The position numbers were made by a program, and so were the translations under genes. Positions 1-2,198 of a stretch of DNA of 46,692 nt are shown here, piece by piece; the stretch's first letter is position 1, and the number at the start of each line of letters is the position of its first letter. The stretch is taken from assembly GCA_013288015.1 (NCBI GenBank), contig JABDCR010000017.1:1-46692 (forward strand). Reading direction: 5' to 3'. Under the pieces are notes generated by a model that saw nothing but the letters and a program-made list of their open reading frames with translations, was not told where the DNA came from and did not search any database. This DNA is from Bacteroidota bacterium (lineage in GTDB: Bacteria > Bacteroidota > Bacteroidia > B-17B0 > Aurantibacillaceae).

Positions 1-456
1 TTTTGTGATACTGTCTTTACAATTTATTCCTGCCGAAACAAGCAATTGTACTGTATGTGTTCCACTTGTGGTATAAGTGTAGCTTGGGTTTTGTAGAGAT
101 GATGTGTCACCTATTCCAAAACTCCAATGCCAGTTATTTATAGTTCCTGCATTGGTGGTCGAATTATCTGTAAAACTCACCGACTGACCTAAGCAAGCAT
201 TGTTTACAGTAAAGGCTGCGTGAGGTTGTCCGTTTCTGTATACCACTATAGTATCTCTTACTATTCCACATGAGCTTCCTTGGTTAACAGCTAATACAAA
301 AGTTAATGTGTCGTTATCTGTTATTGCAGGCGTGTAAGTTGCATTTAATGTGCTATCATTTGGTGTAAATGTTCCGCTTCCAATAGTCGACCAATGCCCA
401 ACTGCAGTTGCTGTAACCGAACCGCTAAGCGCTATTATATTACTCGAACAAATTGT
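1..456 (-). pseudogene. PKD/Ig-like adhesin fragment, minus strand, open at both ends
   Basis: The minus strand is open for 152 codons and reads as a cell-surface repeat protein. From its upstream end it begins with CSSNIIALSGS and an Ig-like stretch (GHWSTIGSGTFTPNDSTL), then a PKD repeat with NNWHWSFGIGDTSS, NPSYTYTTSGTHTVQLLV and a closing CKDSITK. This layout is typical of large T9SS-exported Bacteroidota proteins. The reading frame hits a stop (complement of 457-459) just upstream of the homologous part, and no start codon fits there, so the N-terminal part is missing. The other end runs off the left edge. The next gene on the plus strand is the same kind of protein and carries the C-terminus, so I infer that both are parts of one gene separated by an inversion or a chimeric join at 447-457. 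Coding on this strand is confident; what it means is not. Confidence 0.75.
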
Positions 457-1182
457 TTAACGCTTATGGTTAACTTTAAAGATACATCTAAAGTGATTTT
501 ACCTGATAGTATTTCATCTTACAATTGGAACTTTGGCGATGGTGCTACATCGGTGGTTACAAACCCATCGCATACATACAGCACAAGCGGAACTTATACT
601 GTGTTATTGCAAGTGCAAACCAACAACGGTTGTAAAGACACAGCTACTAAAATAATTATTACAGGCCAACCTATCGTAGCTGATTATACACCTGCCGGAG
701 GAAGTTATAATGTTCATCAGGATATAGACTTTACAAGTCAGGTTACCGGTGCAAGCACCTACAACTGGAATTTTGGAGATAACTCAACTGCATCTACGCT
801 GCCTAATCCATCGCATGGATATAATCTTGCAGGCACATATACTGTAACATTAGTTGCTACAAACAGCATGGGTTGCAGCGATACAGTTAGACATACATTT
901 GAAGTAAACCCAAGCGGACATAATGTACCAACCGGATTTACACCTAATGGTGACGGTTTAAATGATTACTTCTACATTATGGGTGGACCATTTGATCAGT
1001 ATGATTTGAGAGTGTTTAATGAATGGGGTCAGCAAATATTTATGTCGAATAGTCAAAATGATAAATGGGATGGAACCATTAATGGAACCAAACAACCAGA
1101 AGGCACTTATATGTACATATTTAATGGCAGCATTGACGGTAAGAGCTTAAAACTAAGTGGTGAAATAAACTTAATACAATAA
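394..1182 (+). CDS. PKD-repeat protein, C-terminal part with type B T9SS sorting domain
   Basis: This is the C-terminal part of a secreted, cell-surface protein exported by the type IX secretion system. Two PKD repeats are visible (SYNWNFGDGATS with HTYSTSGTYTVLLQV, and TYNWNFGDNSTAS with GYNLAGTYTVTLVA). They are followed by a gliding-motility-associated type B sorting domain over about the last 85 residues (GFTPNGDGLNDYF, LRVFNEWGQQIF, KWDGTINGTKQPEGTYMYIF). The ATG at 394 is probably not real: residues 1-19 read antisense through the minus-strand fragment and look unlike any domain, and recognisable protein starts around 454 (CLTLMVNFKDTS). No signal peptide is present, so the true N-terminus lies elsewhere. 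The PorP/SprF gene begins 2 nt after the stop, a common pairing of a T9SS type B cargo with its membrane partner. Confidence 0.85.
   Translation: MPNCSCCNRTAKRYYITRTNCLTLMVNFKDTSKVILPDSISSYNWNFGDGATSVVTNPSHTYSTSGTYTVLLQVQTNNGCKDTATKIIITGQPIVADYTPAGGSYNVHQDIDFTSQVTGASTYNWNFGDNSTASTLPNPSHGYNLAGTYTVTLVATNSMGCSDTVRHTFEVNPSGHNVPTGFTPNGDGLNDYFYIMGGPFDQYDLRVFNEWGQQIFMSNSQNDKWDGTINGTKQPEGTYMYIFNGSIDGKSLKLSGEINLIQ
447..457. repeat. 11-bp palindrome at a coding-strand switch
   Basis: The sequence aacaa-a-ttgtt is a perfect inverted repeat around one central base. Left of it the minus strand encodes a PKD/Ig-like protein; right of it the plus strand encodes the same type of protein. Both frames remain recognisable right up to the palindrome, with Cys codons on both strands inside it. 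The palindrome is therefore the best estimate of the join. Short inverted repeats serve as crossover sites in invertible DNA and also as the site of fold-back chimeras in amplified DNA or assemblies. Confidence 0.6.
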
Positions 1183-1184
1183 CC

Positions 1185-2198
1185 ATGAAAACAAAACTAA
1201 TATATATACTCGTTTCGCTTTATTGTTTTTTAACAATACAATTAAAAGCACAAGACCCGCATTTAGCGCAATATGATGCGTTTCCTGTTTATTTAAATCC
1301 GTCGCTAACCGGAAACTATTTAGGCGAAGGAGATGATTACAGAATTTCTTCCGTTTATCGTTCGCAATGGCGAGCCCTTACACCAAAGCCTTATACTACA
1401 TATGGAATAGCATATGATCAAAAAGTTCAACGGTTTGGAATAGGCGGGTATATTATTGACGATAAATCGGGAGTAGGAAATTATAACACCATGAATGTTC
1501 AGGTATCCGGCTCTTATTTAATTACAGATCCTAAAACATCTCCACACTTATTAAGCGCAGGAGTGCAAATGGGCATTTTTTATAAAACCTTTAATCCTAA
1601 TTCATTATTATATGAAAGTCAACTTGATAATTCGACCGGTACACTTAACCCCAATATTAATAGTGGCGAATATTATAAAAAAAACAGCTTAGTGAATTTT
1701 GATGCAAATATTGGTGTGTTTTATAAGTACCGTGATGTACAGAAAAAATTCTGGCCTTATATTGGTTTATCATTGTTTCATGTAAACCAACCAAAAGAAA
1801 ACTTTGGCGGAGCTGCCGAAACCAGATTACCTATACGTTGGGATATGCAGGCAGGATGTGATTTTTTGATTAATGAAAAATTTAAATTAACGCCTACTGT
1901 TTTATATATGAACCAAGCAAAAGCCTGGGAGTTAAATATGGGCGCATTGGGTTACTATAAACTTAATGACAGTAAAGATGTTCGCTACGATTTAATTTTT
2001 GGATTAAACTATAGGCTACAGGATGCCGTTATTATACAAGCAGGAATTAAGAAAGATAACATTGCTTTGCGTATGAGTTATGATATAAACACATCGTACC
2101 TTAGTAGTTATACAAATGGTAAGGGTGGTTTCGAAATGACACTTATTATAATGGGTAAAAAAGGTACACCCATTTTTAAATCAATGAGTAAGTACTAA
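1185..2198 (+). CDS. PorP/SprF family T9SS outer-membrane protein
   Basis: A 337-residue protein of the PorP/SprF family, outer-membrane beta-barrels that work with individual type B T9SS cargo proteins. A signal peptide is visible (KLIYILVSLYCFLTIQLKAQ), followed directly by the family hallmark QDPHLAQYDAFPVYLNPSLTG and then YRSQWRAL. Later segments alternate in the manner of beta-strands (IGGYIIDDKSGVGNYN, LIFGLNYRLQDAVIIQAGIK, MRMSYDIN-like end) and finish with a GGFEMTLIIMGKKG-type terminal strand. Length is normal for the family. The ATG lies 2 nt after the stop of the PKD adhesin, so the two are almost certainly co-transcribed. The family call is firm; whether this protein anchors the upstream adhesin is inference from proximity and from how such pairs behave in Flavobacterium. 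Confidence 0.93.
   Translation: MKTKLIYILVSLYCFLTIQLKAQDPHLAQYDAFPVYLNPSLTGNYLGEGDDYRISSVYRSQWRALTPKPYTTYGIAYDQKVQRFGIGGYIIDDKSGVGNYNTMNVQVSGSYLITDPKTSPHLLSAGVQMGIFYKTFNPNSLLYESQLDNSTGTLNPNINSGEYYKKNSLVNFDANIGVFYKYRDVQKKFWPYIGLSLFHVNQPKENFGGAAETRLPIRWDMQAGCDFLINEKFKLTPTVLYMNQAKAWELNMGALGYYKLNDSKDVRYDLIFGLNYRLQDAVIIQAGIKKDNIALRMSYDINTSYLSSYTNGKGGFEMTLIIMGKKGTPIFKSMSKY

Follow-up and report, generated by a model that had tools for sequence, protein, structure and literature searches.

An intragenic strand flip in a type IX secreted PKD adhesin of a Bacteroidota draft genome is very probably a fold-back chimera at a contig end

Introduction

In the contig examined here, the coding strand flips inside a gene for a type IX secreted PKD adhesin, approximately 450 bp from the contig end. 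The flip is almost certainly not a real feature of the genome, and with high confidence it can be ascribed to a fold-back chimera, an artefact of the laboratory or of assembly, with no evidence of a switchable gene. Four observations lead to this reading, namely that a relative carries the region as one gene, that the flip sits at a contig end, that the same geometry recurs at two other contig ends, and that no recombinase match occurs on the contig itself (C17) or on contig C11.

The window, meaning the whole stretch of DNA that was analysed, is the entire contig C17 (46,692 bp), so that base 1 is an assembled contig end. The assembly (G000) is a draft of 2.47 Mb in 98 contigs with an estimated completeness of 58%, and 3.6% of it lies within 456 bp of any contig end. 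Its smallest contig measures 2,533 bp, which suggests ordinary metagenome binning rather than a single-cell genome.

Two halves of an adhesin and their junction

The features at the left end of the window are as follows.

1 to 456, minus strand: inverted terminal arm, a PKD/Ig-like adhesin piece, open at the contig end (BLASTP, DNA match, PKD_4)
447 to 457, no strand: the very probable fold-back junction with AACAAATTGTT (sequence; the coding of both strands abuts here; upstream-site homology to 458)
448 to 1182, plus strand: C-terminal end of the same adhesin gene, with PKD repeats and a CHU_C type IX sorting domain (BLASTP, PF18911, PF13585)
1185 to 2198, plus strand: PorP/SprF-family type IX secretion membrane protein (PF11751, E 9.6e-37; colinear with the relative)

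The minus strand of 1-456 is open throughout and encodes 152 amino acids with a PKD domain (PF18911, 1.9e-13), and 448-1182 on the plus strand codes for two PKD stretches followed by the CHU_C type IX sorting domain (PF13585, 1e-18). PorP/SprF-family proteins are the usual neighbours of type IX secreted PKD adhesins, and the locus combines PKD repeats, a C-terminal sorting domain and such a neighbour (PF18911, PF13585, PF11751). Downstream of it, 2470-2850 of the window encodes a small protein with N-terminal 12-bp lysine-alanine-rich repeats and then, by eye, a SWIB-type-looking domain.

A dicodon model trained on the long ORFs of the same genome had minus-strand coding stop at 447 and plus-strand coding begin at 457, leaving zero intergenic space. 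ORFs, domains and this model together confirmed the original prediction, made from the letters of the contig, that the coding strand flips within a T9SS PKD adhesin near 447-457. The same prediction had pointed to an 11-bp palindrome at the join. AACAAATTGTT is indeed present at 447-457, its only occurrence in the window, where shuffling predicts 0.23, but a palindrome of the 5+1+5 type is nothing special in this genome, with approximately 1.6 per kb. The motif AACAA-A/T-TTGTT itself is rare, occurring only eight times in the 1.91 Mb that were read, both orientations counted, which gives no sign of a shared recombination site. AACAAATTGTT was considered as a recombination site and rejected on these two grounds, the commonness of such palindromes and the rarity of the motif.

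The match to the upstream site continues through TTGTTT up to position 458; the assembly lacks this strain's native downstream site. The joined strands probably share a microhomology of approximately 6-11 bp at the junction, an overlap deduced from the relative's upstream site.

That the two halves are independent, complete genes lying head to head has next to no chance of being right. An ATG at 394 does open a 262-aa ORF that runs into the plus-strand half, but this codon falls on sequence antisense to the other coding segment, inspection by eye reveals no signal peptide in the ORF, no intergenic space separates the halves, and both halves fall within one ORF in the relative.

The intact gene in a relative

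In a relative of the same genus (L014, PLYA01000092.1, contig C85 of genome G005), a single unbroken ORF spans the region, with at least 4,550 codons in the part that was read. BLASTP aligned the left half to residues 1495-1644 of this ORF with 71% identity (E 5e-73) and the right half to residues 1745-1985 with 65% identity (E 2e-109), the left-half match preceding the right-half match on the same strand. Other repeats of the relative's protein matched the left half far worse than residues 1495-1644 did (E about 1e-72). Judged from sequence, 1-456 and 448-1182 are thus two pieces of one type IX secreted PKD adhesin, and the single ORF bears out the expectation that the left segment, once turned round, would stand upstream of the right one in one protein.

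The DNA comparison agreed with the protein matches. Bases 1-456 match positions 15429-15823 of the relative's contig on the strand opposite to that of the adjoining part of the contig, and by blastn 469-2186 of the window is colinear with 5250-7013 of L014. Among the main matches of the first 20 kb of the window to G005, 1-456 is the segment whose strand differs from that of its neighbour. The two sites that meet in C17 lie on one strand in L014, the upstream one at approximately 4,483 and the downstream one at approximately 5,240, hence well within 10 kb of each other; in C17 they are joined head to head, and a segment of approximately 0.76 kb is skipped. The species itself yielded no native copy of the junction.

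The right end of C11 follows an earlier stretch of this adhesin gene in the relative colinearly, at 82% identity, until the contig breaks off. The native order is most likely the C11 end, a gap of approximately 2.2 kb, bases 456 to 1 in sense orientation, a gap of approximately 0.3 kb, and 457 onwards. The adhesin is a giant repeat protein, with at least 3,040 codons up to the end of C11 (C11:55000-64122), and contig C177 of another genome (G004) also starts within the adhesin gene. Such a repeat-rich giant may be the kind of gene inside which assemblies break.

The same geometry at other contig ends

A single junction looks the same under inversion and under fold-back, and other contig ends were therefore checked for the same geometry. 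In total, 1.91 of the 2.47 Mb were read, covering nearly all contig ends and most small contigs, with the right ends of C43 and C44 read without their last bases. The scan listed abutting opposite-strand coding segments devoid of a proper start or stop. The candidates nearest to contig ends were the right end of C31 (219 bp), the left end of C17 (447 bp) and the left end of C21 (1,091 bp by coding, with the join at approximately 620).

At the left end of C21 (L117, 1-627), the four informative relatives of the same genus (G002, G003, G004 and G005) all show bases 1 to approximately 620 to be inverted with respect to the sequence from 624 on, and the two sides are 88% and 83% identical to G003. 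By eye, the translation places the end of the inverted arm within an MscL-like gene. The sequence across the join encodes the N-terminus of a coiled-coil lipoprotein, and approximately 4 bp (TAAT) are common at the join. The end of the arm stops short of meeting itself by approximately 125-150 bp in C21 and by approximately 300 bp in C17.

At the right end of C31 (L222, 19774-20000), the last 227 bp encode the N-terminus of an ATP-dependent PEP carboxykinase (PF01293, 3.8e-21) that is cut mid-gene, and comparison with G002, G005, G006, G013, G015 and G029 showed them inverted relative to the upstream neighbour gene. The genes at both of these ends are unrelated to the adhesin, and the relatives show the opposite, ordinary orientation. 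As a housekeeping enzyme, PEP carboxykinase would not be expected to switch in this manner.

Controls deeper inside contigs, in C12 (2.1 kb) and C69 (1.7 kb), revealed no flip relative to the relatives. All three confirmed flips lie no farther than approximately 625 bp from a contig end. Under an even spread of flips, the chance of this would be approximately 1e-4, a figure that is indicative only, as near-end candidates were examined first. Both the location of the flip at the end of a contig and the recurrence of its geometry at two further ends support the fold-back chimera or misassembly that the original prediction had named as an alternative to inversion.

The inverted segment of C17 is single-copy in the assembly, and the assembly was searched in vain for a second copy of it, for contig ends that overlap and for ends that duplicate themselves in inverted form. 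The missing self-inverted duplicate ends do not count against a fold-back, because the arm ends before repeating itself. In C81 (L177), a 4-kb contig, 251 bp occur as two direct copies that are 92% identical (1097-1347 and 2586-2836).

Inversion as an alternative

The favoured idea of the original prediction, a phase-variable invertible surface antigen, gained no support. It would require a real and reversible intragenic inverton of approximately 0.76 kb, turned by a site-specific recombinase at short inverted repeats and cutting the sorting domain off from the remaining protein. If this were true, the inversion would switch a giant type IX secreted adhesin between sorted full-length and truncated forms. 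Turning the segment round does convert the order of the relative into the observed order and accounts for the one junction, and invertons with repeats of 10-40 nt are a familiar feature near the surface genes of Bacteroidota (PMC11892184). C17 resembles the intragenic invertons of this phylum in that a segment of a surface gene would likewise be turned round, but those require a recombinase, inverted repeats of approximately 10-40 nt on either side of the segment and the presence of both orientations in the population (PMC11892184), none of which was found for C17.

Specifically, no inverted repeat of at least 11 bp occurs around the two breakpoints in the sequence of the relative (L014 4380-5320). 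The tyrosine or serine recombinase that was to be looked for nearby is likewise missing, with zero matches to PF00589 or PF00239 on C17 and C11; the five integrase or resolvase matches of the assembly lie on C3, C9, C35, C42 and C65, and an enzyme could act from elsewhere. Moreover, the second breakpoint is absent from the assembly, C17 lacks the second end of the segment, and unrelated genes including that for PEP carboxykinase are flipped alike at contig ends. An inverton is accordingly left with a slim chance of being the explanation.

A fixed, one-off inversion that does not switch, leaving the adhesin as a broken pseudogene in this strain, is compatible with the order of the pieces as well. 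Coding remains intact up to the join in both pieces, so that no decay is apparent, and the position at a contig end together with the two sister cases points to a technical cause. The chance that such an inversion is the explanation is very slim.

A fold-back chimera and its known counterparts

For the fold-back chimera, which the evidence favours, the following course can be proposed. A 3' end would have been copied leftwards to approximately base 457, would then have paired, by a few complementary bases, with the opposite strand approximately 0.76 kb upstream in the same gene, and would have been extended back from there. The chemical step may have taken place during DNA amplification or during library preparation. 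The assembler would then have extended a presumably low-coverage end of C17 with the chimera, yielding the inverted arm of 456 bp, which ends before meeting itself; the exact microhomology used in this step is likewise presumed. As this arm is longer than one short read, the chimera must either have been present in several molecules or have been extended by native reads. This weighs against the proposed course, as do the lack of a native junction copy from the species and the size of the smallest contig, which suggests binning rather than a single-cell genome.

Chimeras of this kind are known from two sources. During phi29 amplification, 3' ends that have been displaced anneal anew to strands nearby, using a few complementary bases (PMC1855051). 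Inverted joins made up 85% of 475 amplification chimeras, a deletion typically lay between the partners, and most chimeras joined sequences less than 10 kb apart; 93.5% of the inverted joins below 10 kb had at least 2 complementary bases, with a range up to 21 (PMC1855051). The C17 junction resembles the inverted chimeras of multiple displacement amplification (MDA) (Lasken and Stockwell 2007, PMC1855051) in its inverted join, its intervening deletion, partners less than 1 kb apart, probably a few complementary bases at the join, independence of gene function and the occurrence of several cases per genome. Unlike it, those chimeras were seen at the level of reads from an amplified single E. 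coli cell (PMC1855051), while the C17 case is seen at the level of an assembly.

Library preparation also yields inverted-repeat chimeric reads, which arise when single strands pair with each other at palindromes or inverted repeats (PMC10908179). C17 is alike in that a strand is joined to its own inverted complement at a short inverted repeat, but the reported cases are soft-clipped reads in human capture libraries (PMC10908179), whereas the arm of C17 is 456 bp and longer than one read. Searching the literature for reports of such an artefact in metagenome bins yielded nothing specific.

Implications

Intragenic strand flips at the ends of draft contigs can mimic phase-variable inversions. 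Looking through the other contig ends for this geometry in unrelated genes costs little, and it could be used to screen the intragenic inversions that are reported in draft genomes.
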